Source of the DNA: Alphaproteobacteria bacterium GM202ARS2 | GTDB taxonomy: Bacteria > Pseudomonadota > Alphaproteobacteria > GM7ARS4 | Length of the DNA stretch: 64,000 nt | Assembly: GCA_014323835.1 (NCBI GenBank) | Contig: JACONH010000003.1 | Span: 1-64,000, forward strand | Direction: 5' to 3' | Shown here: positions 1 to 51,579 of the stretch, one piece after another | How the letters are laid out: every line of letters starts with the position of its first letter | Position numbering within the stretch: position 1 is the first letter of the stretch | Translations under genes and position numbers: made by a program | Notes under the pieces: model-generated | Told to the model about the DNA's origin: nothing | The model's input: only the letters and a program-made list of their open reading frames with translations | Databases searched by the model: none

Positions 1-1365
1 GACGCCGCGGCATTCGATGTCGCTGTCGCCGTCCCAAGGGCATCGTTATAATTCGTCCCCGTGCGGGTGCGATACTTATACGCCCCGGGCGCTGCAACAC
101 AAATCCGAGCCACCAGCGTGCCACAATAGGCATTGGCAGCACTCTCAACAGCAACCGCTACCACCGAATAAAGACTGATATCACGCCCTTCAAATGACGC
201 TGGCAGAGCCGCCAACAAGCCCGCATCTTTTTCCGTCCCGCGCCCATCAGCTGCCGCAAACACAAAAATATCTTGCTTGCGTCTGTCAGCAAGGTCAGCC
301 AACACACCCAATTCAGGCGCGCCTGCCGTCAGCGCGGCATACAGGTCTTTATAGACACCACTATCTTTCACCAGCGCATCCACGTTCGTGGTATCGTCAC
401 CCACCGCACCGCCAGCACTACTGGCAGCCAGCGTGTTCTGTATCAGCACAATGTTACGGGTGCTATCAGCAATCACGTTGCCGCCACTTCTATCCCGTGC
501 CACATCGATGCCGCGGGCGCGGTAAATCAAATCTGTCGGGTTAAAGCCACTCGCCCCCGCTTGCACAGAGGTCAACACTCGCAATATCGCCCCCGGTGCA
601 ACACCATGAGTATTACCCGCCCCACCTTGACCATCCAACAAGCCGTTAATCAACGCCAACAAGCCCATCTGTTGCGCGCTTGCCAGGGCGGGAACGCCTG
701 AGGAATCGCCGTTGTTATCCTCTCGCACCGCGGTATCGCTGGTAACCACCAACTCATAGGATTCCACGTTGCCCGTGCTGGTATAGAAACGCCCGATGTG
801 CTGATAGTTCTCAGCACCCGTGCCAGAGGTCAGAATAAGGTGATTGTTCGAATCAATCATAAAGCGGAAGTTAGGCGTGGTGCCAACAATAGATGAACTG
901 CCACTGGTGAGCGTATTAAGGAACGTTGCCAGCTCCGTGCGTCTCGCCGCGGTGCTGTCAAAGGTCGAGCGGTCCACCGCTTCGAAGGCAGCACTGTTAA
1001 TGTCGGAGACCCGTATCGACACATAAGCCGCGCTATTAGCCGTAAAGCCCTCGTCATAGAGCCGCACGCGGTTGTCGTCATCGCTACCAAAGACGAGCGT
1101 TATGGCGGGGCGGTTGCCAATGTTGGTGGTGAGACGGAAACGAGTCAACGTATCAAAAGACGCACTACTGGCAGCAGAGGAAAACTCAGGGTGGGTCGGG
1201 TCAAAGCGCGTCGTTGTCACCACACTGATTTGACTGGCGTTACCAATACGCAGCTGGCTCAGGTTGCTAATCGCGGCATTGCTGGTTGGCACGCCACTGA
1301 CATACGCTTGCGCGACACCAATAGTCGCAAAGGAGTCTTGCGCTTGGTATTCGCTACGGATGTTC
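1..1365 (-). repeat. S8-like domain 5 of the giant protein (cut by window edge)
   Basis: Begins with EYQAQDSF and has VVTTTRFDPTHPEF near 1190. Thr stands where the catalytic Asp would be, seven residues before HPEF. The catalytic-His position, inferred by aligning QQMGLLALING with HGTAVASVMTG, is Gln. It continues with NTHGVAPGA, DIFVFAAADGRG and CGTLVARICVAAPG, and reaches ATATSNAAA at the left edge, where GTSxAAP would be. The rest lies outside the window. Confidence 0.75.
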
Positions 1366-4300
1366 TTAACGAGAGCAGTGCCTGTGCTGGCATCGCCCGT
1401 AAACAGTGCCAGCGCGGCATCGCGGTCGGTGATACCGGTTAACGTAATATCGACAAACGAGCCCACCACACAGCGACCCCTGCCACTGTCAAACTGATAG
1501 TTCAAATCCGTAGAGCAATCTGAGGCTCTATCAGCGGTGACACATCCCGTCCCGCTCCTGAAGCCCCGCCCGCCATCGGCAAAGCAGTTGCTCGCACTGG
1601 CTACGGCACAATTGCCCGCTACAACCGCACGCCCTCGAGATTGACACGTGGCATTAGCGATACATTCATTGGTCGAAGTGCCAGCCAAGCGAGAGAAGCT
1701 CCCTGTGCATGACGTCACACAGCTGCCCGATGAGCTCTGGAAGAAGTATGCCGCACCCGCATTGAAGCAGTTTGTCGCGTTGGCGGTGCTACAGTAGCGT
1801 GTGGCAAGCGTAACACCACCTCCATTCCTAACGGCGTCCGCACGCACACCTTCGCCGGCATCGCCACATACGCTATCGGCGACACAGGTCGAATCATTGA
1901 GACTCCTTAAGGTGAGGGTTTCACCGCTACACATGGCTTGGCACTGACTGCCCTGATACACTCTGCCGACATTGTCACAATCATCTGCGTTTCTAGCAGC
2001 AATACACAGTTGGTCAGAGTTCGCCCCTTGGTTGGGGTCTGTGCATGCGGACACGCAAACATTCTCTCTGTCGCCGTCGTCGTTAATGACACTCTCACCA
2101 AAATCAGCGGCACTATTACAATCAGACGGATTTTGCACACAACCCCTCGTGTCGTTGACATCATAGAATCCCATGGTGGCATCGTTACCGCCGGCGGCAT
2201 AACACGATACGCCACTTGCCGCGACACACACGCCGCCCATCAATCCTTCGCCTTCGCTGATACAGCTATCGACACAATCGGTTTCCGCCACATTAAAGAA
2301 CACACCGCCGCTGGTGCAGTTGGTCGCACTCGCCACCAAGCAGTTACCGCCAACAACGACACCATTTTTGCCACCGCTGTGCGCGCGGCCACAGGTCGCC
2401 GCCGAGATACATTCGTTGCCCCCTGTCAGTGCGCGCCGCGTGTTGCGAGTCGTATCGCTACATGTCCGCACACAGCCATCATCGATGTCGTGATAATACG
2501 TGGTTGTCCCTGCTTGGCGGCACGTCGTTGGCGTTGCCGCAACACACATCCGTGTCGTGTTGACACCCAAGTTATTCGTATCGACACACACCGATACGGC
2601 AACGCACTGATCGTTGCAGTTGCTCGCGCCGTCCACACAGGTTGCCGTGCCTGAACCCGCGTCATACAACCGCCCCGCCGCCGCGCAAGCCATCACCCGT
2701 TGCGTATCGCTTGAGATAGCCTTGCTGGTTGCAATATTGACGCAGTTGACCCCAAACACACCCTCGCCCGCGGCACAAGAAGCCACACAACGACCGCTAC
2801 CTGAATCGAAGCGCACATTAGCAGAGGGATGATTGCACGAGGTCCCATTTGGTGCCACGCACTGCCCGCTCCCACTATTAAAGCCCATCCCGTTGTCTTG
2901 CTGACAGGCTTGCGCGCTTGCGGTCACGCATTGCGTTGTGCTGCGCACCGCGCCTTGATTGCGGTTACACTCGGTTGTGGTCACGCACGTATTCATGCTG
3001 TCGCGAGAGCGAGTCAACTCACCGCCGCTACAGGTCTCAACGCATTGCGTATCGTCATAGTAATACGTGGTTGCCCCAGCATTAAAGCACGATGTCCCGC
3101 TGGCTACGACACACCCGCCCGCCGCGCCTGCGGTTGCTCGTCCGCCCATCGCCCCGATGCACGAGGTCTCCGTATAGCAACTATTCGTCCCGAGCGTCCC
3201 CACCCCTTTGAATTCGCTTCCCCCACAAGCCGTTGACGCATTACACATCATGGTTGCGACATTGTAGCTGCGTCCCGCATTCATGCAGTTGCTATCGTTG
3301 CGGGTTGCGGTGCATGTGAAGTCGCCCCTCGCCCCATCGCCGTCATCGCAAGCGTTGACACAATTATTACCATCGAAGAAAGCCGTTAACGGCCCAGCAC
3401 GACACGCTATCGCCGATGCCGCCACACAGGAGTCCGTCCCGTCATAGCCCAACCCTGAGCCTTCATCCAAACAATCCGCCGCGCTAGCAATACACCGCCC
3501 GCCGGGACTGCCCGAGAACACCCTGTTGCTCCGTCCGCAGTTGGGGCCCGATGCCATCTCGCACACGCCATTGACAACCGCGCCGTTAATGGTCGTCCCG
3601 AAGCAATCCGTTGCCGAGATACACGTATTCATGTTGCTGGCTGAGCGCGATATGCTGGTGCCACCGCTACACGTTGTCACGCAGTCGCTTCCTTGTAGGA
3701 AATACGTATCCCCGAGATTATAGCAGGTGCTCGCGCTCGCCGCGGTGCATGTGCCACTGCCCCGAGCCGAGCGTCCACCGCCCGCAGTCGCACATTCCAT
3801 CAGGCTATAGCACGTAGCCGCACCCCTCGAGCCCGCACCATCGCCAGCAAAGCGACCCGCACCACATGCCGTCACGCAAGCACTGCTCTCGAAGAACCGA
3901 CCCGCCTCCTGACAGTTATCGTTGCTCGCGGTTGCGGTGCATTGATTGCCCGAAACACCCTGCCCGGGAGGGCAATCGACGCCGTTAGCAAAACACGTCA
4001 AACTATCAACGCTCAAAACATTATTCGCATTTCGGCATTGCTGTTCCGTAATGCACATGGAGTCGCTGGCATTAAACACCGGCGTGCCACCACTACAAGA
4101 CGAGAGACACATCCCACCTTGTTCTCTAATCCCGCTGTTCTCGCTACACATCACGCCAACGCCGCGGCACACACCCGCACTCATATCAAAGCCACGTCCG
4201 CCATCTTTGGCACAGCCGGTTGCACTCGCTGCCACACAAGAGCCACCCACAACCACCTCGTCGCGGTCATCGCGACACATCACCTCAGAGACACAGCCCA

Positions 4301-7300
4301 CCGTTGCCCGATGCAACAGAGTCCGATTCTGGCACTGCTCCACCGTCGGCATCGCCACACAACGTCTATTCACCGCATCGCTTGCGGTAGAGACACCCTC
4401 ACTGCCCGCACACATCGTCCCCACCGCCAAACACGTCGTCCCTGCCGAGTTCACCAATCGCCCCGACGGACAAGCCGTCTCCTCAATACACGTATTATCG
4501 CCCTGACTGAACAAACCGCCCGCACCCGCACACGTTGCCGCATTACGAGACGTGCTACACGCCGTTGTCGTAGCCCCTAAGCCCTCCTGCAAACACGTCC
4601 GCACCGACACACAGCTCCTATCCCGACCCGTAATACCCACACCCAAAACCGAACCCACAATATTATCATTGGCACAAGACGATACACACAAACCATTTGC
4701 CCCTAACACCTGCCGATTGGCTTGACACTCCGCCTGTGACGTCAACGACGACGTCGCCGGCAGAGTCACCATCTCCATATTACAGCCCGCCCGACTCGAG
4801 CGCCGCACACCCGGACGAGTCGCACAATGCAAGTCCAACAAGCCAGCACCAAAACGCTGCTCCTTCGTTAGACCGCCCGACTCATCCACATAATCATTTT
4901 CACCATCCCTATCCAAGTCGAAGTTCTTCGCCGCCGTCGCCAACACCAACGCCACCATCTGCGCACTGGTAATCTGAGTGCCAAAGATATCCTCCAACAA
5001 AGCAAAGCCACCCGCCACCAACGCCGCGGCCGCATTCGCGCTAACACGTCGCGTCAACACTTCTTGGTATTCACCATCCACCTTGTTGCGATAACGATAC
5101 GCACCCGGCGCAGCAATACAAATGTCCGTCACAAGCGAACCACAAGGCGTTTGCCCCTCTTCTGCCGCTACCACCACAATGCTGGTATCAGCGATATTGT
5201 TAATACTCACACCCGCCACACCCATCGAGGCAAAAATACCCACATCATTACTTCTGCCATCAGCCGCAGCAAAGACAAACACATCCCGCCTCGCGTTTCT
5301 CACACCCCGCTGTGTCGAGCGCATCGCCGCTAACATATCCCGATAAGCACCACCATTACCGAAAGCACTATCAACTGCCGTCTGTGTCGCCTCGTCCTGC
5401 GAGCCCGTTGCCGAGAACGTATTGCTCATAAGCACAATGTTTCTCTCGTCCAAGTTTGCCCTATCGTTACTTACTGTCATGCGGTTGACAAGATCGTCCA
5501 CACTCAAGCCCGCCTCGCCAAAGGCTGGAGTCGTAACCACATCCAAAACCGCCCCCGGCGCAACGCCATGCGTATTCGCCAACGTCAACGCATCACTGCC
5601 ATCACCCGCATCCGGATTCAATAAGCCGTTAATCAACGTCATGACACCCATGTCCGCGGCATCAACCCGCGGCGTGAAACTGCCGGGGCCCCCACTCTGG
5701 GTATGAGCCGTCGCATCCGACGTAATCACAATCTGATAAGAGCGAATGTTACTCGCACCCGTATAAACACGCCCCAACATCTGCAAGGTCGTTATGTCAA
5801 GACGATTAACACCCGCACCACCACCAACATCAAACTCAATATAACGATTGTCATCACTCAAACGAACACTATAAGGCTCACGAACCTGCGAACCACCCAA
5901 AATACGCACCGCAAAAAACCGCAACAAACCATTCAAATCACCCGCATTGGAACGTAACTGATCAATCGTGCTTTCATCAAAACCCGCACTCGCCAATGTC
6001 GCACTCAACGCACGGCTCGAACCAAAGTCCGATAACGCCAACGGCGGTATCGGCACAGAAGAATACAACGTCCCACGCCTCGAACCATCCTCATAATCGA
6101 AAACATCACTATTCAAACGCGATTGCGTGAAGCGACTACTGCCCGCAAATAATCTCGAGTAAATGTCATTCAAACTCGTCCCACCCACATTGTCCAACTC
6201 AAAACGAGTCAAGGTGCGATACACCGCATCATCACGACTAGAAGAAAACTCAGGATGAGACGGATCAAAACGACTCGTGGTCACATACGATACACGACCA
6301 CGCATGCCTAACTGCAAGTCCGCCAACGAAGCCGTCATCATACTCGCATCACGACCATACGCACCCGCCGCACGCACCGCCACAAGTGACGGCTGATTAC
6401 GATGCTCCCACGCAATACGCTCCTGATCACTGCTCGGTGCCAACAACGCACTGCCCAAATCCACACCCGTAAAGAGCTGCTCAGCCTTCTCGGCATCATC
6501 AACGCCCGTCAACACCAAACTCAAGTCAGCAGGCTCCCGATTAAACGTCAACTGCTCAGGGGCACACATATTATACGCCCCATTCATATTACCCCCCAAC
6601 GTCTGACGAATAGCCCTCGCCGCATCACTCTGCTCGAAGACACCACGCAAGCCCGGTGAACACTCCAAGCCCGCCTGATAGTTGGCATCGTTGGGGTCGT
6701 CCGGATTGTCCGGGTCACGCCGACGATTAACACACGTCTTCGCTATCGGATCATACCCACGATACGCCAAAGCCGATTCCGTATCAAAGCCACCATCACC
6801 CACAACAAAAACACTCGCTACATTGCCACAAGCCGTCAACGCATCCGCAACACTCAACGTGGACACATCAACACAACGACCCGACACAACACCCTGTCCC
6901 AACGGACAATGCCCACGTGTGCCCTCACTCTCTGTTGCCGCACCCGTGCGACCAACATAACAAATCGTCCCGTCTATGCTGAGGTTGCGGTTATCACCCG
7001 AACAAGCCTGCTCAATCGTTTGCCCCGAACTTAAACTTTGACAACTTGCAGTATCATCATAAGACAACAAATAATACCCACCCGCTCTCGCACACACCGC
7101 ACCCACAGCTGCCTCCTCCTCTGCACTCGCCCCAGCCGAGACAACACCCGGTGACTCACAAGCCGTTCCCCCCTCATTCACACCCATGTTCATCGATACA
7201 CACTCAGTCGCAGCAACACAGGCACCACTCAATAAAACACGACCACCCCGACACCCCTCCGCCTCAGGGACACACCGCTGCAACACACTATCCAAAACCA

Positions 7301-10300
7301 TGCCCGCCGCACACGCACTCGCTACCCGCGCAACCTGCTCATCACAACCATCCCTATCCCGAGACGTCAACGGACGCGCCGCACACGCCAAATCCAATAA
7401 CCCAACACCAAAACGAGCCTCCTTCGTTAAACCCCCCGACTCGTCCGTATAGTCATTTACACCATCAGGAGTCACATCACTCGCACCACTCAAATCAAAG
7501 TTCTGACTCGCCGTGGACAAAACCCTCGCCACTAACTCCTGCGATGACACCGAATCACCAAACAACGACTCCAATAACGCCAAGCCCCCACCCACCAACG
7601 CCGCCGCGGCATTGGCTGACGCACCATCACTCAACGTATCGGCATAACTACCCCCCGACTTGTCCCTATAACGATACGCCCCCGGTGCCGAAATACAGAT
7701 GGCTTGCACCATGGCACCACAAGGCGTGCTTTCCTCATAGTTGCTGGCATCGGTATAACTCTGGTAACGCTCCGCCGCAACCACCACAATACTATAATCC
7801 CTCAACGCCGCCAGATTCGCCATGCCCGCAAAAATGCCCACATCATTCATCCCCGCCGTCACCGTGCCACCCGCATTAACATCACCACGTCCATCGCTCG
7901 CCGCGAACACGTATACGTCTTGCGTTGCGGTATCTTCAACGCCCGCACTCAACGCATCATAAATCGCCTTGTAATGCCCGCCCGCACTCGCATCGGTTAT
8001 ATCAACAGAACCCACCGCACCCGTTGCGATCGCATCATGGAACGTATTGCTGAGGATAACAATGTTACGCACAGGATTGAGTCCACCCCTGCCTATATCC
8101 CTATCACGCGCCTGATCCACAACATCTCTCGCGACACTATAATCACCATCACCACTGGTCTTGAGTTTCTCCACCGATAGAACACTGAGGCGCGCCCCCG
8201 GTGCGATACCATGGGTGTTGGAGTCACGTAAATTGTCGCTGGTGCTGCCGCTCGGGTTAATCAAACCATTAATTAACGCCATGACACCCCTATCAGCGGA
8301 ATCATCGGCAAAGGTGTTAGCAACAAAATCGGTATTGGTGCCATCGTTATTTTGTAGGACACCATTTACAAGTGAAGCAAAGAGTTGATAGCGTGCTAAA
8401 TTGCCCGCCTGATAGGCGCGCCCGACATATTGAAGATGCACATCGAGCGAAGTAGCACCAGATAGAGAGATATATATCCCGCGTGTGCCCGCGGCACTGA
8501 AGTCCACTCCTTGCAGATACAGTTGAAGGGTATCGGTTGCAGAGACGAAGCCCACTTCGTCCGAGGTGCCTTCGAAGACCGCTGCGCCACCCATAAGCGA
8601 GCGGAAGAAGGTAAGCAGTTCAGCCCGTCTTTCAGGGGTGCTAATGACATCGGATCTGGCACGTCCACCGCTGTCGGTGCTGGAATCCACGACTGCTTCT
8701 AAACCGACAGGGATAACAAACGTAGCCGTTGCAAAGTCTTGATTAAGGAAACGGACTTGGCGACTGGTATCTCGTGCGAACAGCCACTGCCCGAAATTCT
8801 CGATAGCGGTATCGCCACCAGCAAGGTCACCATCGATAAGAACATTACCGCGACGATTCATATTGCCACTAGCCAAGCCGCGATTTATACCAACATCCGC
8901 TAAGGTAAGCCGCGTCAGCACATCATAGGGGACGTTTTGGGCAGCGGGGGAGAATTCGGGGTGGGCGGGGTCGAACAGGGTGTTGGTGATGTAGCTGATG
9001 TGCGCGCCTTGTCCCATGGCGAGTTCATTCAAGCTATAGAGGGGTTGATTGGCATTATAGGAGTCGATACGTCTGAGATACGTATCTGCCGCACGGACTG
9101 TCTGCAGGCTCGGTTGGTTCTGGTATTCTTTGGCGATTAAGCCACGGACGTTGCCGATGGTATTGCCAATGCGGTTGTTGTCGGCATCCCTCTCGGCATA
9201 ATGGACAACGTTATCGGTATCGGCATGGAACAGCTGGTTGCGGGCGAAGTCGGCACTCTCGGCAAGATTAAAGCTACCCGTCTCGCTAATTGTTGCGTGC
9301 AACGGATAGCCTTCTTGGTTGCTGTCATTGGTGCAGCTGTTGCCGGCTTGGTTAATAAACAAGCCAGCATCGATACATTCGGCAACGGGGACACATCGGC
9401 TTGCCCTATCGCCACTGAGTCCGACACCCAGCACGTTGCCAATAGCACAATCGGCAGCTGTGGCGACACAACGCCCTTGTTCGCCATCGGTGCCTTCGAA
9501 GAAGGGATGTGATGCCTGACATTCACTGAGGCTTTGCGGTATTTTGCAGTAATGGACACCGTTTAAGGTGCCAACCCCTTGGGTTGGCTCGCACGTTGCG
9601 ACGCAACGGGTGCGGGAGACGTTCAGCATAAGGGGGGTTGCGTTATACCTATCAGCACAGCCTTTAACTTGGTCGGCAAGAGGAATGACACAACGCTCTG
9701 TGCCACTGTTCTCAGGGTCACCGACTTCGAAACCGCCCGCCTCACAGGCGGCGCGGGTCATACAACCGCCATTCGCGCTGTTCTGGGCGAGATAGTTACC
9801 TTCGCCTAAGCCCTGAGCGCGACAGGTTTGAGCTGCCTTGAAGACTTGTGGGGTGCCACTGACCGCCTTGGCATCGAGATTCAAACAACGTCCGTTGATA
9901 ATGACGCGACTGCTTCCCCTGACTCCGTCTGTCGGCTCTCTTAAGCAATAGGGGGCTTGGACGCAGGTATTATTGGCGATGTTTGTTACTCCCTCAGCAA
10001 TCGCTCCACCTGTGGCATTAAGAACCGCGCCTGTGCGGATACAATCGGCAACGGTGCGATTCAAATCGGTGGCACAGCTGCCATCGGCTTTGACACCCGA
10101 AGAAACCAGACATGTTATGGGTGTGGATGATGGGGGAAGGTTACAACGGGGGTCATTGGCACGGAGCACCGGGCTGGTGGCACAGGCTAAATCTAAGAGA
10201 CCGACACCAAAGCGCGCCTGTCCAACGGGAAAGAAAACTGAACTTGGACTAAAGGATAAAAGGCTACTGCCACCACTGGGGGGATTGAGATAGTCATTAT

Positions 10301-13300
10301 CACCATCTCCGTTGAGGTCAAAGGTCTTCGATGCGGTGCTGAGGATACGGGCGACCACTTCGGCACTGCTGAGGTCGGGGAAGATTTGGCCAATGAGGGC
10401 GATACCACCCGCCACCAGCGAGGCGGCGGCGTTAGCAGAGACCGCGGTTGCTAGGGTATCGTCATCGTCATAGACGTTGTCGCTGCCGCGGGCGCGGTAG
10501 GTATAGGAGCCCGGGGCAGCGATACAGAAGGCTTGCACCAACGCACCGCAAGGCGAATTCTCTTGGTAGTTGTCGTCATCGGTATAGCTTTGATAGCGTT
10601 CTGCCGCAACCACAACAATACTAAAGGGACGAATGACGGAGGCTGACCCGCTTACTTCCAAGGCAGGAATAGCCGCGAGAAACCCAACATCGCCCGCGCC
10701 TGAGGTTGTGGTGCCACCATCCCTTTTATCGCCCCTGCCATCCTGAGCAGCGAAAACGAAAATATCTTGTGTCGCGGTATCAGCCGTGCCTTCTGTGAGG
10801 GCTTTGTTGAATGAGTTATAAGCCCCCTCAGCTAATCCAGCAACTGCATTGATAGTCGTTTGCGTAACAGGGGTAGCATCACTGACAGCAATAACATTTT
10901 GTATCAGGACAATATCGCGGGTGGGATTGGTATTACGGATAACATCCATGCCTCTGGCGCGGGCAATCAAGTCCACAGGATTGTAACTCTCTCCATTACC
11001 GACTTTAGGCGACGTATACACATGCAACGCGGCTTCGGGGGCGATACCGTGCGTGTTCACTGCCGCTTCTTTCTCGTCACTGTTGGCGTTGGGGTTACGC
11101 AAGCCCGCTATCAGTGCCAGCAAGCCCATCTGGGCGTCATCGGCAAGCTCAGGGATGCCTGAGGTGAGATAGCTAACGTCAGAGCTGCTGGGCATCGTCC
11201 CAAGCAGATTGGTTGCCCCGGTCACCACGATTTCATGGGAGACAATGCCACCGCTGTTAGCATACAGCTGGCCAAGACGCTGAAGCCATTGCCCCTGATT
11301 ATTGCTGGTGCCGGGCTGATTGAGTAAGGTGATACGTCCATTGCCACTGCGTAAGTCAATGTAGAGATTCAAATTGCCACTGGCAAAACCATCCCCAATA
11401 AGACCATCGACCGTCAACACAACATCATTGTTACTCACGGTGTCCGTTATCATAACCATAGCGTTTTGAGCGGTGCCAAAGGGCGCGGATGCTAAAGCCC
11501 TATCACGCAATAAATCCTTGAGCGCGACAACAAAGGAAGGTGATTCGCCCGTAAAAGCCTCAGTCGGCAACGAGAAATAAAAGCTCCTATTATCACTACT
11601 CAGCCCCTCACTATAGCCCCGCACTTGAGAGCGTAGCTCAGGGGTAAAGAAGGCTTCGACGTTCTGTTGCCAGGTTAAAGGTGTGCCGTCAGATGGTAGC
11701 ACACTATCACGAACATACAACCGCACCAGCTCCTGTGCATCGCTGGTATCGAATTCGGGATGGGTCGGGTCGAAACGAGTGCCGGTTATCACCCGTATGG
11801 TCTGTCCTTGCCCTAAGTTCAACGGGTCATTCTCGCCCACACCATAGCCATAAGCATGAGCAGCCCGCACCCACATCAAACTGGGTTGATTCTGGTGTTC
11901 CTGTCTCTGCCAATCCTGCGACCCGCGCCCTGACAACGCGCCAGCAAACAAATTCACCACTGAGCTATTAATACCCGTATCGCTATTCCCCGTCTCGCCA
12001 AACAGGGGGGCTTGGATGTTGCCATCGCCACGCCCGGCACTCGCCAAGCGTTCTTGTTCCTCATTCTCACTGATGCACAAGCCAACAAAGGCACCTTGTG
12101 TTGGCACCCGACGATTCTGCCCCAGACTATCTGTCGTAAGCGTGCAACGGTTTGTATCAACGCAGCGAGGAGAGTCATCCTCAAGAAGAGCGCCGGTTAT
12201 AGATTGTTCATAGCCAACAGAGCAACTGGCGAAACTCGCCTCGACACACCGATTCTCTTCAGGGTCATAGCCCAAACCATGGGTCATAATACATTCTTCT
12301 ACACTACGGAGACACTGCGTGCCATCAAGGGAGAGAACGGCTCTGCCGGGGACGGCGTTACTGATATTGTTGGACGCTGCCAAACACAGTGCGCCATCGT
12401 TATTGGGCGCAACACAGCGACGGGTCGCACTATCAAAACCAACAGAAAACGTATCCGCACAATCTGAACGAGCCACGCATATCGTCTCTGTTCCGCCAGT
12501 TGAAGCATAAGTCGCATTATCAGGCGCGCTACTCAAACATGTGCCTTGCGTGACACACATCTGCACATCAATATTCAAAAGACCGCCCGCCTGCTGGCAC
12601 ACACCGACCTCAAAACATATCGAGAGCTCTGCAACGTAGAGTTCCCCCGTTCCGTTACATTCCGCCTCCGCCTTGTCGTTGGTCACAGTATCATTACACG
12701 CACCCTCCCGCACACCCGCACCACCACTCAAACACCTGCTGGCTTCAATACACACATTATCCGCGACACCCGCCACAAAGCCCGCCCCGCTGGCAAAACC
12801 CGCAGGACACGTGGTAACACAACGTGCCGACACATCGCCCGCCGCGGCAACAAACTGCAGTTCAAGGTCACCACACCGCTCAGCCGTCGCGGCAAAGCGC
12901 GCCCGGAACTGCGGGTCTAAATCCTCATTGTCCGCTATGGCGGGATTCACCAGCCGCGCACAACGCTCGCCACGTAGGCTCGGGCGACTGGCACACTCCA
13001 TATCAAACAAGCCATGCCCATAACGCGCACTGCCACCATGCTGGACGTAATCATTCTGCCCATCCGCATCCAAGTCAAAGTTCTGTGCTGCCGTGACTTT
13101 CACCCGATTGAGTAGTGCCGCGGTGTCTAACTGGCCAGCAAAAATCTCCTGCAAGACCGCAAAACCACTGGCAACGAGTGCCGCCGCCGCCCGAGATGTC
13201 GCCTCAGCGGTCGCTAATCTGTCGTTGTCGTTATACCCATCCCTACCCGGATCCCGATAGTTATATCTGCCCGGTGCCGCAATACAATAATCCCGCGCCA

Positions 13301-16085
13301 ACGCCCCACATGAACCCTCGCCACGCTCCGCCGCCACAACCGCCAAATAATGCGGTAACGGCGTCAACATCGTCTCAGGTGCCTCCAACGTAAACGCCCG
13401 CCCATCACCCAACGTTACCACCACACGATTGGTCTGCGGCACAAATTCAAAGCGCGCCCGCGCATCCAAGCCCTCTATCAAGGCGGTCGGGACATTCTCA
13501 AAGACAAAAGGCGCGTTGGTCTCCCTATCTACAATCTCTAAAGCATTAACATCGGTAGACGCCCGTATCACCGCATCAAGCACATAAGACGTGCGGGTAT
13601 CCAACGTAAACGTGGTCGTGCCATCCGCCAACGTCACACCCACAACACCCCCCGCCATCAAAACAAAACTCGCGGCATTCCCCGCATCCAATGCGGTGAA
13701 TAACGCCCGCGGCACACCCTCGAACTCAACGGCATCCTGACCCTGAATGAAACGCAAACGCGCATTGTTGCTCGCAACAAAAGCCGTATCGCCATTGCTG
13801 GTGATAGAATCCCGCGCCACCTGCAACAATAAATCCCGATACTGCTGAGGGGTGCCCGCTACAACATCATGTCCCGCATGAGTCAAATCAACAACAGACG
13901 AAGAAAAGTCATACTCGGTGCCCCCGACAGTAATCTTCAAAACATAAATGCCATTGCCCGAATCTTCATAAGCAAAAGTCGCCGTCGAGCTCAAAGCATC
14001 AGACAAAGCCTCAGGGACATTACGAACAACCAGCTGATTGTCATTCGCATCGGATAAGGTGAGAACCCCGCGCTCTTCGGTGTATTCAATGGCACTGCCC
14101 CCCTCAGCCGCGGCGGCGGTTAAGATTTCTAACATATAATCGTCTTCCCGCCCATAACTGCGTAACGCTCGTTGTAGGGAGCGCGCCGCCTCAGTGCGGC
14201 GACGATTGGCGACCTCGTCCAAGTAAAACGGCAAGCCCGCAAATAAACCAATGTCGCTGGATTCTTCCGCGCCCGCAAAAATCAAGGCATCATACTCGTT
14301 CATGCCATCGCCCCGCACCCTCGACGCATGACGATAACTCTGTAAGCGAGTCAAACCCGCGATAATGTTGGTGCCACGGTCGCCACGATACCGCAACGTG
14401 GACTCCAAGCCATAACGACCCGTTATCAGCAACTCTAAACCTTGGGCGCGAGTGAAAATATCCGTGGGGCCACCGCCAATACCTAACGTACTCCCCGTTG
14501 TCGCGGCAAATTCATTCTGCCTTGAAACAGCATAGCGATTGTCCTCCGTTGCACCCTTACGCAAGACAACCGCACCCACATCATTACGCACAAAATAATC
14601 CGCCAACACATTCGTAAATGTCCCATTCGTTAACGAGCGGAATATACGAAGCAACTGCGTGGTGCTCGGTGCCTCAGGGTTTTCATAAGCAAGAACCTGA
14701 CTAATATCCGTCGCGGCAAGGCGGTTATCCAACAAAATCACATTGCCTCGTCTCTGCGTGGGGCCTGCTCCCGCCTGCAACACCGAGTCATACAAATTAA
14801 CACCCCCTTGAATCTCCCGCACACCACCAGAGACACCGTCTACAGTGTTACCCGTCTCCCGCAAGCCATGAGTCGTCAATATCCGCAAAGACGCCCCCGA
14901 CGCCAAGCCATGCGTCGCAACCGACAGCGCACCCGCATCATCGGAGTCCTCAGGATTAACCAAACCCCGTATCAACGCCAACATCCCCACATCCTCAACA
15001 TCAGCATCCGTCCACGTGCTGTCGCCGATATACACCCTCGAACTGCCACGCAACTGCGTGTAACCCGCTTGCACCGTCTGTATGGACAGACGACCACCAC
15101 TATACGTATAGCCCACTAACTGCAAGTCTGGGACTTGGTCGTTGGTGTCGGTCTTCATCCGCACCGATAAACCATTGGCAATTAAATCCTCAATGACCGT
15201 GCGAGAACCCACAAGATACGCAGGAACCCGATTGAACGCAAAAACCGCCGGTAAGCTAATCTGAACCTGCAATACACCACTATCGCTCGTCGTCTGATAA
15301 CGATGAAAACCCCGTATCACCGGCAAAATGCCACTGGGAACACTCGGCTCGTCCGCAAAGTCAAAAGTGCCAACAGGCAACGCATCGCCTACTCTGCCAA
15401 TGTCCGAAACCCAAACCCGAACCAACGTATCGCCATCAGTGCGGGCAAGGGCAAACTCAGGATGCACGCCCACCGTATCCTGCAACGTCCCACCCGTAAA
15501 ACGCCCATGACGGCGGTCGGTTATGTAACTAATCGTCGAACCCGCACCCGTATAGTCATACGCTATACCACCATCTTGGAAAGCATTCAGCCCGCCCGTG
15601 CTACCGCCATCGCCACTGCGGTCATACAACGCTATGCCCGCTCCGATACGTTCGAAGGAAGGCTGATTGCCATACTCAAAGCGGAAACGGCTACGTTCTT
15701 GTGTTTGCGTCGGTGTGGGCGCTCCAAAGCCAAACACATCCTCATCGTCCTGCGTAAAACGGCGCGTGTCCTCCCGCAACGTGTTCGCAAACTCAGGATC
15801 AATAGAACCCACCGAAAAACCCGTCGAACCCCGCAACGTCACCGCACCTCCACCCACCATACCCATGCCATCATCAGGGTCGCTCGGGTCACTCGGGTCA
15901 GTGGGCGTGGTCGGCGTGGTCGGGATAACGCGCTCAGCAACGCCTCCACCCACAACCGCCGGATTCACCAACGGAGAAGAACTATCACCACCAGATGAAC
16001 AGGACGCAACAAAACCAAACAATAAAGGAATAACGCTCAAACGAAGGCGAGCAAAACGAAACATAAACAAGGATTTGTGGAACAC
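1..16085 (-). CDS. Giant lipoprotein of tandem degenerate S8 subtilase domains and Cys-rich stretches (3' end off window)
   Basis: A single minus-strand frame of at least 5,361 codons, entering from the left edge; I saw no in-frame stop. The start chosen is GTG at 16085 because AGGAGA lies 7 nt upstream (16093-16098); in-frame ATGs at 16106 and 16064 lack a good site. The N-terminus has several basic residues, a hydrophobic run and a lipobox ending V-A-S-C followed by Ser/Gly, so it is predicted to be exported and lipidated. The body repeats one plan five times: an E-x-x-x-Q-x-S entry, a beta strand, (D)P-x-HPEF, a THG(I/V)AP-like segment, a VFAA-like strand, CG-x-x-V-x-x-x-CIAAPG, an Ala-rich helix where GTSxAAP would be, a FDxxxDGxNDY acidic loop and GxGLLDLxCA. 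These are subtilase landmarks, but the catalytic residues are mostly replaced. Cys-rich stretches with roughly one Cys per ten residues separate the domains. Function unknown; a surface binding or adhesion role is inference. Confidence 0.85.
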   Translation of the reverse strand, partial: MFHKSLFMFRFARLRLSVIPLLFGFVASCSSGGDSSSPLVNPAVVGGGVAERVIPTTPTTPTDPSDPSDPDDGMGMVGGGAVTLRGSTGFSVGSIDPEFANTLREDTRRFTQDDEDVFGFGAPTPTQTQERSRFRFEYGNQPSFERIGAGIALYDRSGDGGSTGGLNAFQDGGIAYDYTGAGSTISYITDRRHGRFTGGTLQDTVGVHPEFALARTDGDTLVRVWVSDIGRVGDALPVGTFDFADEPSVPSGILPVIRGFHRYQTTSDSGVLQVQISLPAVFAFNRVPAYLVGSRTVIEDLIANGLSVRMKTDTNDQVPDLQLVGYTYSGGRLSIQTVQAGYTQLRGSSRVYIGDSTWTDADVEDVGMLALIRGLVNPEDSDDAGALSVATHGLASGASLRILTTHGLRETGNTVDGVSGGVREIQGGVNLYDSVLQAGAGPTQRRGNVILLDNRLAATDISQVLAYENPEAPSTTQLLRIFRSLTNGTFTNVLADYFVRNDVGAVVLRKGATEDNRYAVSRQNEFAATTGSTLGIGGGPTDIFTRAQGLELLITGRYGLESTLRYRGDRGTNIIAGLTRLQSYRHASRVRGDGMNEYDALIFAGAEESSDIGLFAGLPFYLDEVANRRRTEAARSLQRALRSYGREDDYMLEILTAAAAEGGSAIEYTEERGVLTLSDANDNQLVVRNVPEALSDALSSTATFAYEDSGNGIYVLKITVGGTEYDFSSSVVDLTHAGHDVVAGTPQQYRDLLLQVARDSITSNGDTAFVASNNARLRFIQGQDAVEFEGVPRALFTALDAGNAASFVLMAGGVVGVTLADGTTTFTLDTRTSYVLDAVIRASTDVNALEIVDRETNAPFVFENVPTALIEGLDARARFEFVPQTNRVVVTLGDGRAFTLEAPETMLTPLPHYLAVVAAERGEGSCGALARDYCIAAPGRYNYRDPGRDGYNDNDRLATAEATSRAAAALVASGFAVLQEIFAGQLDTAALLNRVKVTAAQNFDLDADGQNDYVQHGGSARYGHGLFDMECASRPSLRGERCARLVNPAIADNEDLDPQFRARFAATAERCGDLELQFVAAAGDVSARCVTTCPAGFASGAGFVAGVADNVCIEASRCLSGGAGVREGACNDTVTNDKAEAECNGTGELYVAELSICFEVGVCQQAGGLLNIDVQMCVTQGTCLSSAPDNATYASTGGTETICVARSDCADTFSVGFDSATRRCVAPNNDGALCLAASNNISNAVPGRAVLSLDGTQCLRSVEECIMTHGLGYDPEENRCVEASFASCSVGYEQSITGALLEDDSPRCVDTNRCTLTTDSLGQNRRVPTQGAFVGLCISENEEQERLASAGRGDGNIQAPLFGETGNSDTGINSSVVNLFAGALSGRGSQDWQRQEHQNQPSLMWVRAAHAYGYGVGENDPLNLGQGQTIRVITGTRFDPTHPEFDTSDAQELVRLYVRDSVLPSDGTPLTWQQNVEAFFTPELRSQVRGYSEGLSSDNRSFYFSLPTEAFTGESPSFVVALKDLLRDRALASAPFGTAQNAMVMITDTVSNNDVVLTVDGLIGDGFASGNLNLYIDLRSGNGRITLLNQPGTSNNQGQWLQRLGQLYANSGGIVSHEIVVTGATNLLGTMPSSSDVSYLTSGIPELADDAQMGLLALIAGLRNPNANSDEKEAAVNTHGIAPEAALHVYTSPKVGNGESYNPVDLIARARGMDVIRNTNPTRDIVLIQNVIAVSDATPVTQTTINAVAGLAEGAYNSFNKALTEGTADTATQDIFVFAAQDGRGDKRDGGTTTSGAGDVGFLAAIPALEVSGSASVIRPFSIVVVAAERYQSYTDDDNYQENSPCGALVQAFCIAAPGSYTYRARGSDNVYDDDDTLATAVSANAAASLVAGGIALIGQIFPDLSSAEVVARILSTASKTFDLNGDGDNDYLNPPSGGSSLLSFSPSSVFFPVGQARFGVGLLDLACATSPVLRANDPRCNLPPSSTPITCLVSSGVKADGSCATDLNRTVADCIRTGAVLNATGGAIAEGVTNIANNTCVQAPYCLREPTDGVRGSSRVIINGRCLNLDAKAVSGTPQVFKAAQTCRAQGLGEGNYLAQNSANGGCMTRAACEAGGFEVGDPENSGTERCVIPLADQVKGCADRYNATPLMLNVSRTRCVATCEPTQGVGTLNGVHYCKIPQSLSECQASHPFFEGTDGEQGRCVATAADCAIGNVLGVGLSGDRASRCVPVAECIDAGLFINQAGNSCTNDSNQEGYPLHATISETGSFNLAESADFARNQLFHADTDNVVHYAERDADNNRIGNTIGNVRGLIAKEYQNQPSLQTVRAADTYLRRIDSYNANQPLYSLNELAMGQGAHISYITNTLFDPAHPEFSPAAQNVPYDVLTRLTLADVGINRGLASGNMNRRGNVLIDGDLAGGDTAIENFGQWLFARDTSRQVRFLNQDFATATFVIPVGLEAVVDSSTDSGGRARSDVISTPERRAELLTFFRSLMGGAAVFEGTSDEVGFVSATDTLQLYLQGVDFSAAGTRGIYISLSGATSLDVHLQYVGRAYQAGNLARYQLFASLVNGVLQNNDGTNTDFVANTFADDSADRGVMALINGLINPSGSTSDNLRDSNTHGIAPGARLSVLSVEKLKTSGDGDYSVARDVVDQARDRDIGRGGLNPVRNIVILSNTFHDAIATGAVGSVDITDASAGGHYKAIYDALSAGVEDTATQDVYVFAASDGRGDVNAGGTVTAGMNDVGIFAGMANLAALRDYSIVVVAAERYQSYTDASNYEESTPCGAMVQAICISAPGAYRYRDKSGGSYADTLSDGASANAAAALVGGGLALLESLFGDSVSSQELVARVLSTASQNFDLSGASDVTPDGVNDYTDESGGLTKEARFGVGLLDLACAARPLTSRDRDGCDEQVARVASACAAGMVLDSVLQRCVPEAEGCRGGRVLLSGACVAATECVSMNMGVNEGGTACESPGVVSAGASAEEEAAVGAVCARAGGYYLLSYDDTASCQSLSSGQTIEQACSGDNRNLSIDGTICYVGRTGAATESEGTRGHCPLGQGVVSGRCVDVSTLSVADALTACGNVASVFVVGDGGFDTESALAYRGYDPIAKTCVNRRRDPDNPDDPNDANYQAGLECSPGLRGVFEQSDAARAIRQTLGGNMNGAYNMCAPEQLTFNREPADLSLVLTGVDDAEKAEQLFTGVDLGSALLAPSSDQERIAWEHRNQPSLVAVRAAGAYGRDASMMTASLADLQLGMRGRVSYVTTSRFDPSHPEFSSSRDDAVYRTLTRFELDNVGGTSLNDIYSRLFAGSSRFTQSRLNSDVFDYEDGSRRGTLYSSVPIPPLALSDFGSSRALSATLASAGFDESTIDQLRSNAGDLNGLLRFFAVRILGGSQVREPYSVRLSDDNRYIEFDVGGGAGVNRLDITTLQMLGRVYTGASNIRSYQIVITSDATAHTQSGGPGSFTPRVDAADMGVMTLINGLLNPDAGDGSDALTLANTHGVAPGAVLDVVTTPAFGEAGLSVDDLVNRMTVSNDRANLDERNIVLMSNTFSATGSQDEATQTAVDSAFGNGGAYRDMLAAMRSTQRGVRNARRDVFVFAAADGRSNDVGIFASMGVAGVSINNIADTSIVVVAAEEGQTPCGSLVTDICIAAPGAYRYRNKVDGEYQEVLTRRVSANAAAALVAGGFALLEDIFGTQITSAQMVALVLATAAKNFDLDRDGENDYVDESGGLTKEQRFGAGLLDLHCATRPGVRRSSRAGCNMEMVTLPATSSLTSQAECQANRQVLGANGLCVSSCANDNIVGSVLGVGITGRDRSCVSVRTCLQEGLGATTTACSTSRNAATCAGAGGLFSQGDNTCIEETACPSGRLVNSAGTTCLAVGTMCAGSEGVSTASDAVNRRCVAMPTVEQCQNRTLLHRATVGCVSEVMCRDDRDEVVVGGSCVAASATGCAKDGGRGFDMSAGVCRGVGVMCSENSGIREQGGMCLSSCSGGTPVFNASDSMCITEQQCRNANNVLSVDSLTCFANGVDCPPGQGVSGNQCTATASNDNCQEAGRFFESSACVTACGAGRFAGDGAGSRGAATCYSLMECATAGGGRSARGSGTCTAASASTCYNLGDTYFLQGSDCVTTCSGGTSISRSASNMNTCISATDCFGTTINGAVVNGVCEMASGPNCGRSNRVFSGSPGGRCIASAADCLDEGSGLGYDGTDSCVAASAIACRAGPLTAFFDGNNCVNACDDGDGARGDFTCTATRNDSNCMNAGRSYNVATMMCNASTACGGSEFKGVGTLGTNSCYTETSCIGAMGGRATAGAAGGCVVASGTSCFNAGATTYYYDDTQCVETCSGGELTRSRDSMNTCVTTTECNRNQGAVRSTTQCVTASAQACQQDNGMGFNSGSGQCVAPNGTSCNHPSANVRFDSGSGRCVASCAAGEGVFGVNCVNIATSKAISSDTQRVMACAAAGRLYDAGSGTATCVDGASNCNDQCVAVSVCVDTNNLGVNTTRMCVAATPTTCRQAGTTTYYHDIDDGCVRTCSDTTRNTRRALTGGNECISAATCGRAHSGGKNGVVVGGNCLVASATNCTSGGVFFNVAETDCVDSCISEGEGLMGGVCVAASGVSCYAAGGNDATMGFYDVNDTRGCVQNPSDCNSAADFGESVINDDGDRENVCVSACTDPNQGANSDQLCIAARNADDCDNVGRVYQGSQCQAMCSGETLTLRSLNDSTCVADSVCGDAGEGVRADAVRNGGGVTLATRYCSTANATNCFNAGAAYFFQSSSGSCVTSCTGSFSRLAGTSTNECIANATCQSRGRAVVAGNCAVASASNCFADGGRGFRSGTGCVTADRASDCSTDLNYQFDSGRGRCVVGSFVDITLTGITDRDAALALFTGDASTGTALVKNIRSEYQAQDSFATIGVAQAYVSGVPTSNAAISNLSQLRIGNASQISVVTTTRFDPTHPEFSSAASSASFDTLTRFRLTTNIGNRPAITLVFGSDDDNRVRLYDEGFTANSAAYVSIRVSDINSAAFEAVDRSTFDSTAARRTELATFLNTLTSGSSSIVGTTPNFRFMIDSNNHLILTSGTGAENYQHIGRFYTSTGNVESYELVVTSDTAVREDNNGDSSGVPALASAQQMGLLALINGLLDGQGGAGNTHGVAPGAILRVLTSVQAGASGFNPTDLIYRARGIDVARDRSGGNVIADSTRNIVLIQNTLAASSAGGAVGDDTTNVDALVKDSGVYKDLYAALTAGAPELGVLADLADRRKQDIFVFAAADGRGTEKDAGLLAALPASFEGRDISLYSVVAVAVESAANAYCGTLVARICVAAPGAYKYRTRTGTNYNDALGTATATSNAAA
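1460..4800 (-). repeat. Cys-rich stretch 4 of the giant protein (~1,100 residues)
   Basis: The longest of four Cys-rich linkers, built from many short units of about 30-45 residues, each with several Cys and phrases such as CV-A-S, GxGFxxxxxxC, CNxAG and YYxDxxxCV. No CxxC zinc pattern dominates, so the spacing suggests disulfides outside the cytoplasm. It ends in a module LTGITDRD-x-A-x-x-LFTG that also closes the preceding Cys-rich stretch. The other linkers are about 280-320 residues, so this one has expanded three- to four-fold. Confidence 0.7.
4800..6415 (-). repeat. S8-like domain 4 of the giant protein
   Basis: Runs from EHRNQPSLVAVRAAGAYG to RFGAGLLDLHCA. YVTTSRFDPSHPEF has Thr at the Asp position. 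ADMGVMTLING has Ala at the His position. SANAAAALVAGGFALL has Ala at the Ser position. The oxyanion/AAPG region CGSLVTDICIAAPG and the acidic loop FDLDRDGENDY are well preserved. So the fold signature remains but none of the triad is visible. Confidence 0.75.
6540..7370 (-). repeat. Cys-rich stretch 3 of the giant protein
   Basis: About 280 residues with frequent Cys, between domains 3 and 4, ending in the LTGVDDAEKAEQLFTG module before domain 4. Same composition as the other linkers. Confidence 0.65.
7370..9130 (-). repeat. S8-like domain 3 of the giant protein
   Basis: Runs from EYQNQPSLQTVRAADTY to ARFGVGLLDLACA. YITNTLFDPAHPEF has Asn at the Asp position, ADRGVMALING has Ala at the His position, and ASANAAAALVGGGLALL has Ala at the Ser position. 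It retains DVYVFAASDGRGD, SIVVVAAERYQ and CGAMVQAICISAPG. Confidence 0.75.
9190..10140 (-). repeat. Cys-rich stretch 2 of the giant protein
   Basis: About 315 residues, Cys-rich, between domains 2 and 3. It starts directly after GLLDLACATSP of domain 2. No recognised domain family. Confidence 0.65.
10140..11910 (-). repeat. S8-like domain 2 of the giant protein
   Basis: Runs from EHQNQPSLMWVRAAHAYG to ARFGVGLLDLACA. RVITGTRFDPTHPEF has Gly at the Asp position, AQMGLLALIAG has Ala at the His position, and VSANAAASLVAGGIALI has Ala at the Ser position. NTHGIAPEAAL, DIFVFAAQDGRGD, CGALVQAFCIAAPGSY and FDLNGDGDNDY match the landmarks of the ordinary-sized subtilases at 49-56 kb. Confidence 0.78.
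12040..12985 (-). repeat. Cys-rich stretch 1 of the giant protein
   Basis: About 315 Cys-rich residues between domains 1 and 2, with units such as CIMTHGLGYDPEENRC. Predicted extracytoplasmic and disulfide-bonded by analogy with the other linkers. Confidence 0.65.
12990..15690 (-). repeat. S8-like domain 1 of the giant protein, enlarged by an internal insertion
   Basis: Runs from EYGNQPSFERIGAGIALYD to ARYGHGLFDMECA, about 900 residues against 540-590 for the other complete domains. It is the least eroded: ISYITD may keep the Asp and ATSRAAAALVASG keeps a Ser, but the His position (EDVGMLALIRG) is Glu. The extra length is mainly three copies of a beta-rich unit placed before the VVAAERGEGSCGAL strand. 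Confidence 0.72.
13380..14110 (-). repeat. Three ~80-residue repeats inside domain 1
   Basis: Three successive units share (N/G)VP-x-AL-x-x-x-L-x-x-x-A-x-F followed by a strand, a turn with Gly and a T-F-x-L strand. The three cores are NVPEALSDAL, GVPRALFTAL and NVPTALIEGL. They interrupt the subtilase-like domain between the VFAA-like and VVAA-like strands. No copy is seen in domains 2-5. Confidence 0.6.
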
Positions 16086-16092
16086 GGGCTTA

Positions 16093-16098
16093 TCTCCT
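16093..16098 (-). promoter_or_regulatory. Ribosome binding site that fixes the GTG start of the giant gene
   Basis: AGGAGA on the minus strand, 7 nt before GTG at 16085. Neither of the flanking in-frame ATGs (16106, 16064) has a comparable site. Confidence 0.65.
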
Positions 16099-16139
16099 GC
16101 TAACATAAAAAAACACCCCCACACACAATACAACACCAC

Positions 16140-16168
16140 ACTATACGAAGGCACAGGGGACGTGTCAA
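16140..16168 (-). promoter_or_regulatory. Sigma-70-type promoter of the giant gene
   Basis: On the minus strand, TTGACA (16163-16168) and TATAGT (16140-16145) are separated by exactly 17 bp: a perfect -35 and a 5/6 -10. Transcription should start near 16133, giving a ~48-nt leader before the GTG at 16085. Confidence 0.75.
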
Positions 16169-17273: not shown

Positions 17274-18338
17274 TTACACGTCACCCGACTTAATCTGCTG
17301 CAACCAACGAAACACCGCCGCTATCTCCTCAATCATGTCAGACGGTATATAATGATCCACCTCAACGCCACGATACAACTCCCGAGCCAACGGAACATTC
17401 TGCATAATCGGGATACCCTCCTTCTCCGCCGTCTTAATAATCAACCGCGCCATACCACCCTCGCCCTTCGCCAACAACACCGGCAACGGAGTCTTGTCCT
17501 TGTCATAATACAAAGCAACCGCTATGTGACGAGGGTTCGTCACAATCACCGACGCCGTCTTAACCTTCTCCGCAACCTGATTCATCGCTATCTCCTGAAA
17601 CATCTGCTTGCGCTTGGACTTAATGTGCGGGTCACCCTCCATCTCCTTGAACTCCCGCTTCACCTCGTCCTTCGTCATCATCAACTCCTTAATGTGCAAC
17701 TTGCGCTTCAACAACAAATCCGCCGCTCCAACAACAACAAAAACCAAACACGTAAACAACAACAGCAATCCAACCATCGATACATACAACATCACAATAC
17801 AAACCAATCCACACGACGAAGGCGCCCATAATAAGTCTCGTAAAAAGTCACGGATGATATGAAATAATATAAAAGATAAAACAATGACTTTTAAGATGTT
17901 AAACAGAAACTCAAGGAGTTTCTTCTTGCCTAAAAGATTCTTCGCATTGCTGACAGGATTCAACTTCTTTAAGTCGGGCTTCAAGGCTTCAAAAGCCAGA
18001 AGGGGGCCTGTCTGCAACACATGCGCCAAAACGCCCACAACTATCACCGTCAACACAATCGGCACAATAATGCCCGTCGCAACCGCAAACACCACCGCAA
18101 ACACATTGCCGAGAGCAACATCAAAAGGCTGCGACAAAAAATCACCCCCCGCAACAACCATCACTCGTAAGTCCGCCCCCCAATCCTCATGCAAGAAAGC
18201 AAACGTGCCACACAAACCACACAGCAATAAACTAGACGCAAAGTCCTTGCTCAGCGCGACTTGGCCTTTCTTGCGGGCATCACGCAACCGCTTGGGAGTC
18301 GGCTGCTCAGTCTTCTCGCCACTGCTGTTGCCGCTCAT
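17274..18338 (-). CDS. sctU: Type III secretion export switch protein SctU (YscU/FlhB family)
   Basis: 354 residues. The N-terminal SGEKTEQPTPKRLRDARKKGQV is diagnostic of FlhB/YscU, followed by four hydrophobic segments (about 35-210), the basic linker KELMMTKDEVKREFKEMEGDPHIKSKR, and a cytoplasmic domain ending DHYIPSDMIEEIAAVFRWL. PSSCG, KEMEGDP and VLRWL-like wording match YscU more than FlhB. The autocleavage motif, NPTH in most members, reads NPRH here (N268-H271): Asn and Pro at the cleavage site are kept, Thr is replaced. It overlaps the sctT stop by 4 nt (ATGA). It would control substrate switching in the inner-membrane export gate. Confidence 0.9.
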   Translation of the reverse strand: MSGNSSGEKTEQPTPKRLRDARKKGQVALSKDFASSLLLCGLCGTFAFLHEDWGADLRVMVVAGGDFLSQPFDVALGNVFAVVFAVATGIIVPIVLTVIVVGVLAHVLQTGPLLAFEALKPDLKKLNPVSNAKNLLGKKKLLEFLFNILKVIVLSFILFHIIRDFLRDLLWAPSSCGLVCIVMLYVSMVGLLLLFTCLVFVVVGAADLLLKRKLHIKELMMTKDEVKREFKEMEGDPHIKSKRKQMFQEIAMNQVAEKVKTASVIVTNPRHIAVALYYDKDKTPLPVLLAKGEGGMARLIIKTAEKEGIPIMQNVPLARELYRGVEVDHYIPSDMIEEIAAVFRWLQQIKSGDV

Positions 18339-19135: not shown

Positions 19136-19139
19136 AACG

Positions 19140-19412
19140 TCAGCGACCCTGTATAGACGCTATCAACTGAAAGGAATTCTGCGTGAAACGATACAACTCC
19201 TCGCCCGTCGTCGCCGCCGTCCAGTAAATGGCGAAACTCACCGCCAATAACTTTATCGCAAAGGAGAGGGTTTGCTCCTGAATCTGCGTCAATGCCTGCA
19301 CCAGACTCACCAGAACACCCGTCAGTGCCGCAACCGCTATCGGCGGCAACGACAACGACAACACCAATAACAACACCGCCGACATGTGCTCGACAACTTG
19401 GCTTACGTGCAT
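19140..19412 (-). CDS. sctS: Type III secretion export apparatus protein SctS (YscS/FliQ family)
   Basis: 90 residues, two hydrophobic helices, with LSLPPIAVAALTGVLVSLVQALTQIQEQTL, the core wording of SctS/FliQ. GGGAGGA lies just upstream of the ATG on the minus strand. sctR ends 15 nt upstream. Size matches the family. Confidence 0.9.
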   Translation of the reverse strand: MHVSQVVEHMSAVLLLVLSLSLPPIAVAALTGVLVSLVQALTQIQEQTLSFAIKLLAVSFAIYWTAATTGEELYRFTQNSFQLIASIQGR

Positions 19413-19427
19413 AACAATCCTCCCCGC

Positions 19428-20589: not shown

Positions 20590-20625
20590 GGATTCCACAC
20601 GCTCAAAGCACCCTGCCCTCCAACA

Positions 20626-20641
20626 ACACATATATATGTGT
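20626..20641. repeat. Perfect 16-bp AT palindrome upstream of sctQ
   Basis: ACACATATATATGTGT, a perfect inverted repeat in the 55-nt gap between nadK and sctQ. Near-copies occur at about 16225-16242 (upstream of the giant gene) and 22791-22807 (upstream of the 69-residue protein gene). It could be an operator; that is inference. Confidence 0.5.
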
Positions 20642-51566: not shown

Positions 51567-51579
51567 CACCTATCTGTTC

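Follow-up and report, generated by a model that had tools for sequence, protein, structure and literature searches.

The window analyzed here, a stretch of 64,000 nucleotides, covers the opening 64 kb of contig C3; the genome it belongs to amounts to 1.83 Mb in 49 contigs. It holds a giant gene with S8 (subtilase)-like domains, a set of type III secretion genes and three S8 lipoprotein genes; the features, in window coordinates, are as follows.

16140..16168, minus strand: promoter-like site TTGACA-17-TATAGT, sigma-70-like (11/12), upstream of the giant-gene start
3..16085, minus strand: giant gene, 5,361 codons from GTG 16085, 3' end beyond the contig (mechanical ORF to 16154)
15999..16085, minus strand: lipoprotein signal peptide, lipobox FVAS/C (Cys codon 15999-16001; Cys52 in the longest frame)
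12990..15692, minus strand: pseudo-S8 domain D1, 901 aa, triad positions D/E/R, insertion of ~280 aa at about 13365-14207
11925..12989, minus strand: Cys-rich linker 1, 355 aa, 23 Cys
10179..11924, minus strand: pseudo-S8 domain D2, 582 aa, triad positions G/A/N
9165..10178, minus strand: Cys-rich linker 2, 338 aa, 21 Cys
7380..9164, minus strand: pseudo-S8 domain D3, 595 aa, triad positions N/A/N
6435..7379, minus strand: Cys-rich linker 3, 315 aa, 17 Cys
4821..6434, minus strand: pseudo-S8 domain D4, 538 aa, triad positions T/A/N
1380..4820, minus strand: Cys-rich rod, 1,147 aa, 103 Cys, repeat C-x11-16-C-x3-8 in 6-Cys units of ~63 aa
3..1379, minus strand: pseudo-S8 domain D5, triad positions T/Q/N, cut by the contig end at ...TSNAAA
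16440-17132, plus strand: ClpP-like protein with scores far under the ClpP cut-offs, located between the giant gene and the type III set
17274-20631, minus strand: non-flagellar type III secretion export genes SctU, SctT-like, SctR and SctQ-like
49269..51566, plus strand: single-copy S8 lipoprotein of the active type, triad intact, C-terminal barrel-like domain
51580..54180, plus strand: second S8 lipoprotein, Ser intact, Asp and His positions apparently altered, C-terminal barrel-like domain
54131..56461, plus strand: third S8 lipoprotein, of the active type (LDT/SHGT/GTSFAAP), C-terminal barrel-like domain

The frame of the giant gene (positions 3-16154, minus strand) comprises 5,384 codons without a stop and remains open down to base 3, since window and contig begin at the same point; no sequence to the left of it exists on contig C3. 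The start codon is most likely GTG 16085, which is preceded by the promoter-like site and, between the two, by a ribosome-binding-like AGGAG. Counted from this GTG, the gene has the 5,361 codons in a single frame given by an earlier note on this DNA, and the product so far, with its C-terminus missing, has a mass of 557 kDa and a pI of 4.6. The FVASC lipobox, with the lipobox pattern applied as in PMC8151025, supports the description of the product as a lipoprotein in the same note. An in-frame stop, named there as arguing against a single giant protein, is absent from the 5,384 codons, and the repeats differ at about 60% of synonymous sites and are thus not assembly copies. A chance origin of the frame is excluded by its stop-free length, by profile homology to S8 proteins (E=1.2e-28) and by purifying selection among the paralogous domains.

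Five S8-like domains, D1-D5, with S8 landmarks (HPEF, a CIAAPG-type motif and GLLDLxCA), were found in this frame, in agreement with the earlier count; the landmark residues are 231/957/1048 in D1, 1465/1877/1985 in D2, 2398/2820/2918 in D3, 3300/3679/3771 in D4 and 4988/5352 in D5. Both alignment with the S8 proteins of the window and motif-anchored reading gave D, G, N, T, T at the Asp position of D1-D5 and E, A, A, A, Q at the His position, which reproduces the earlier assignment (G, N, T, T in D2-D5 and E, A, A, A, Q in D1-D5, respectively); within this gene the Asp is kept in D1 alone (by alignment, beside an insertion). The replacement of Ser by Ala proposed for D2-D4, on the other hand, had been read one column off: the GTSFAAP column aligns with SANAAA or TSNAAA in D2-D5, and the residue at the Ser position is Arg in D1 and Asn in D2-D5. 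The oxyanion-hole Asn (AAGN in active paralogs) is replaced as well, by Asp in D2-D5 and by Glu in D1 (IFAGAE). In the homologous domains described below the Ser position reads R, N, N, N, N for C12a and N, N, D for C12b, while C17 and G001 each have N. An intact triad is absent from all 15 pseudo-domains, and the catalytic Ser has in every case given way to Asn, Arg or Asp. Judging by these residues, no domain is able to work as an S8 peptidase. The insertion in the S8 body of D1 (about 13365-14207) holds internal repeats, VEFEGVPRALFTAL / FVFENVPTALIEGL.

By motif and profile, the S8 homology of the pseudo-domains is firm: a profile built from nine pseudo-domains, compared with 18 S8 lipoproteins by hhalign, gave a probability of 99.8% (E=1.2e-28) over 241 columns, which span the region from the His helix to the C-terminus. 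The Pfam S8 model PF00082 matched one C12b domain at 1.1e-5, and in the window gene the check with an S8 HMM suggested by the earlier note recognized D2, just above the cut-off (1.2e-4; 21.9 bits vs 21.8), but not D1 or D3-D5; the mycosin model matches D2 at 3e-6. With the pseudo-domain profile, active paralogs of the same genome scored 52.7 bits at most, one in the sister genus reached 75.3 bits, and the sole match in a PDB sequence search was a weak one to an S8 protein (E=0.048). The S8 fold itself is deduced from the sequence, because the AF2 model of D2 (seven window sequences) has a pLDDT of 35 and is unusable.

The product of the window gene has at least 179 Cys (C-terminus missing), with only two or three in each S8 body, including a conserved CG...C pair common to the active relatives; Cys-rich rod sequence as a whole makes up about 40% of the passenger. 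In the long rod the Cys spacings alternate between about 11-16 and 4-9 residues, and the unit has the consensus C-x13-CVxxC-SGG-x10-C-x5-C-x12-CxASAxxC. An AF2 model of the Cys module (ten window units, pLDDT 72) predicts hairpins and short helices arranged in a chain, or ladder. In Foldseek its nearest structures were furin-like Cys-rich regions from the insulin and IGF (IGF1R) receptors, followed by R-spondin and TNF receptor; at E>=0.26 they are not significant, being suggestive of a disulfide rod and not of homology. The module had no Pfam match at E<=1 and was not found outside the source genome among 289 genomes. P2X chains, which came up in a PDB sequence search (E=0.3), were taken as a chance likeness of the Cys pattern.

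The giant gene is neighboured by type III secretion genes, among which NCBIfam recognizes SctU, SctR and a part of SctQ, and Pfam an SctT-like protein. An operon of the giant with these genes is ruled out by the ClpP-like gene lying between them on the opposite strand and by the giant's own promoter-like site. Together with 31 ankyrin-repeat matches in the genome, the type III genes make host association likely and a host-facing role of the giant plausible; the source bacterium is thus probably host-associated, on circumstantial grounds. The genome also encodes DsbB. Genes for NAD kinase and MoaA lie just upstream of the type III genes on the same strand; the NAD kinase belongs to the PRK04761 type, which, together with a truncated HPr kinase-EIIA-HPr-EI cluster, points to an alphaproteobacterium. 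Among the S8 lipoproteins of the window, the second one (51580-54180) has kept GTSFSAP and has LGRG (ILGRG) at the Asp position and DHTT (EDHTTLVAS) at the His position; it is possibly a single-domain, half-way pseudo-subtilase.

Profile search of the source genome and reading of the frames identified three paralogs of the giant. C12a (C12:104410-122218) has 5,936 codons, five pseudo-S8 domains and 253 Cys; on its 3' side a 577-codon frame with a C-terminal domain is split off by a short out-of-frame tandem duplication. This duplication (~49 bases; L009:1150-1260, C12:122149-122259) displaces the reading frame immediately ahead of the C-terminal domain, and it may stem from real slippage (a phase switch) or from an assembly error. 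C12b (P0002) is complete, with 3,381 aa and, in this order, a lipobox-like start (VGAC), a Cys-rich part, three pseudo-S8 domains, a Pro-rich linker and a C-terminal domain ending in Phe, a terminal residue common to many outer-membrane proteins. The C17 giant has one pseudo-S8 domain and a C-terminal domain, its 5' part being split over frames. The lipoboxes are VSSC in C12a and VAAC in C17. Upstream of the frame-split giant on C17 (L010:1950-2888) a lipobox is followed by two glycine runs (ACGGGGGGDGGGGGG), and this G-rich tract could be a slippage site. The same contig encodes a 537-aa lipoprotein (L010:12465-14078) with a C-terminal domain of the giant type (37% identity) and a short passenger without S8. 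In short, the family consists of lipoproteins with strings of triad-less S8 domains and disulfide-type Cys-rich rods, and its complete members among the paralogs end in a barrel-like domain.

The C-terminal domains of C12a, C12b and C17 are 83-90% identical to each other and homologous to those of the S8 lipoproteins at 49269-56461 of the window and on contig C20 (E=2e-19 to 6e-10). Their hydrophobicity alternates as in the strands of a barrel (z 1.9-3.1 vs -0.4 to 0.5 in S8 cores). The domain had no convincing match in Pfam and its profile had none in the PDB; PF03797 matched none of ten family members, and hhalign against 20 sequences of PF03797 loci from the class reached a probability of 1.6% at best. 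Because of this lack of similarity we infer secretion by the C-terminal domain and do not claim membership in the classical autotransporters; by analogy, the giants would work like a subtilase autotransporter lipoprotein.

An orphan tail of such a domain opens contig C2 (32 codons, 81% identical). Since no giant other than that of C3 lacks its 3' end, and no tail other than that of C2 lacks a body, the two contigs probably join, and the tail on C2 is probably the end of the window giant. D5 is not grouped on the tree with the type of domain found last before the barrel (C12a D4 and D5, C17, C12b D3), a weak placement, and it shares the highest identity with C12a D2; therefore a sixth pseudo-S8 domain may sit in the gap between C3 and C2.

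We analyzed the distribution of pseudo-array domains in 59 relatives and in larger sets from the class (385 genomes) and the phylum (399 genomes), and found them in the source genome only. The one relative outside it is a single-domain protein in the family's only other genome (G001, sister genus; L057:10774-14844, minus strand), which combines a Cys-rich N-terminal part, a single pseudo-S8 domain and a C-terminal domain, but lacks a lipobox and contains one TAA in frame; all remaining matches examined were single S8 proteins with GTS intact. A search for the pseudo-S8 motifs in 84,980 GTDB species genomes, with narrow patterns and in a collection from which near relatives may be missing, yielded no relative, and none was found in viral contigs or plasmids. 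Among the genomes examined, the putative non-catalytic use of the subtilase fold as a repeat was found only in one bacterial family.

In the phylogenetic tree a branch with 100/100 support divides the 15 pseudo-domains, including the sister-genus copy, from 15 S8 sequences of the active type, which indicates that catalysis was lost long ago and that the arrays arose by later duplication. The copies have a median identity of 49%, and even in the closest pairs about 0.5-0.7 of synonymous sites differ (near saturation), with pN/pS of 0.32-0.59. For the C-terminal domains, dN/dS is 0.05-0.09 in the two pairs with unsaturated dS, a sign of strong purifying selection. Hence the passenger is constrained, yet much freer than the anchor. 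Recent gene conversion of the C-terminal domains is ruled out by their pS (0.59-0.79), and duplication of the repeats during assembly by the divergence at about 60% of synonymous sites.

Parts of this architecture have precedents. NalP of Neisseria and SphB1 of Bordetella have, like the giants, a lipobox signal and an S8 passenger, and their C-terminal outer-membrane domain would correspond to the barrel-like one of the giants' paralogs (Ssp of Serratia has this layout without the lipid), and single-copy active relatives of this kind are present in the same window. The giants differ from them in having lost the triad throughout, in having three to five S8 domains instead of one, in their Cys-rich rods, in their length (from 3,400 to over 5,900 aa vs about 1,000) and in a C-terminal domain that the autotransporter Pfam model does not recognize. 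CspA/CspC and CspBA of Clostridioides difficile resemble the giants in their degenerate-triad S8 domains, two S8 domains being joined in one chain (PMC6636752), whereas these proteins act in spore germination, have one or two domains and lack the lipid anchor, Cys-rich rods and outer-membrane domain; the CspC and CspBA models (NF040808/NF040809) did not match D2 at E<=1 and matched the active paralogs weakly. The Pmp proteins of chlamydiae, which are host-associated too, likewise form a multigene set of autotransporters on the surface and are unusually rich in Cys, with up to 18 (PMC8151025), while the giants have at least 179 Cys and S8 domains in place of the Pmp repeat passenger; GGA[ILV] and FxxN are not in excess in the window giant (3 and 8 occurrences vs 1.5 and 10.7 after shuffling). 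Furin-like and growth-factor-receptor repeats form disulfide-ladder rods of small hairpins like those of the modelled Cys module, which differs from them in being bacterial and without a Pfam match (Foldseek E 0.26 and worse), and the likeness may be convergent. The view of the earlier note that tandem inactive S8 domains are not a known family needs qualification, as pseudo-subtilases and the active-inactive tandem of CspBA were known already, but the assembly described here was not found elsewhere: no known system with the whole of it was found, and the literature searched contained no paper describing inactive subtilases in tandem within surface proteins of bacteria. Pseudo-subtilases had been known to act singly as regulators (CspC) or to form half of a tandem (CspBA); they appear here as a repeated building block of predicted 0.5-MDa surface proteins.

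We consider it probable, by a modest measure, that the giant is a duplicated, protease-dead S8 lipoprotein that serves as a surface binding protein of the beads-on-stalk kind, with a C-terminal anchor and partners in a eukaryotic host. The ancestor would have been an S8 lipoprotein with the general layout of NalP and SphB1, in which catalysis was lost once, before the two genera of the family split; the dead S8 domain and the Cys-rich module would then have been duplicated within the passenger. The product would be exported by Sec, lipidated, anchored in the outer membrane through its C-terminal domain and passed on to the surface, where the pseudo-S8 domains could act as rigid binding heads kept off the cell by the rods; proteins or surfaces of the eukaryotic host would be their most likely partners. 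Of the proposal in the earlier note that the protease fold is reused in a very large surface protein, the tandem dead S8 domains in a giant lipoprotein and a non-proteolytic use are upheld, a structural or binding role being conjectural. Surface export has a difficulty of its own: passengers of autotransporters are usually Cys-poor, with Pmp (up to 18 Cys) as an exception (PMC8151025), and at least 179 Cys count against it. Cys pairs 4-16 residues apart would, however, close no more than small loops, and the same review regards such loops as compatible with translocation. With at least 179 and 253 Cys in closely spaced pairs, the giants raise a testable question about type V-like export. The wider claim, that these are lineage-restricted giants in which the subtilase fold, without catalysis, recurs as a bead for recognition along disulfide rods and which are exported by a non-Pfam C-terminal barrel coping with hundreds of cysteines, is put forward tentatively, at less than even chances.

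Other explanations of the dead domains were weighed against this binding protein. If the pseudo-S8 domains had kept a substrate-like cleft, they might bind host proteases, protease substrates or defence proteins as decoys or inhibitors, as do the inactivated protease paralogues of the scabies mite, which are likewise multicopy with dead active sites and are reported to inhibit complement (PMC5553898). Conserved but dead domains whose copies diverge to a median identity of 49% are what a binding repertoire would lead one to expect, while arrays on long rods exceed the needs of a soluble decoy, and we regard this explanation as rather unlikely. The mite proteins are eukaryotic and soluble, each a separate chain, and not tandem bacterial S8 proteins. 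Slightly less likely still is a role as partner of the active subtilases, in which the pseudo-domains would serve the S8 lipoproteins of the genome as binding partners, scaffolds, maturation factors or regulators, as CspA and CspC, S8 pseudoproteases, act with the active S8 enzyme CspB (PMC6636752); these lipoproteins lie 33-40 kb off on the same contig and have the C-terminal domain in common with the giants, but their genes are neither adjacent to the giant nor co-oriented with it, and the class is rich in active S8 lipoproteins without any pseudo-array.

Decay of the genes, or an assembly product without function, appears improbable. The frame shift in C12a, the split 5' part of the C17 gene and the in-frame TAA of the G001 relative would fit it, but two frames remain free of stops over 5,384 and 5,936 codons, a complete paralog of 3,381 aa exists, both passenger and barrel show the constraint described above, and the synonymous divergence of the repeats argues against assembly. 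Catalysis by other residues of the pseudo-domains, for which the new conserved motifs NTHG[IV]AP and SANAAA might be cited, seems most improbable of all, as the triad positions vary among the copies, no consistent set of nucleophile and base is seen and the oxyanion Asn is gone.

A different elaboration of an S8 lipoprotein was observed in another genome of the class (G055, L060:5019-10778), which encodes a 1,920-aa protein with intact GTSFAAP and a long array of repeats of another type preceding the S8 domain.
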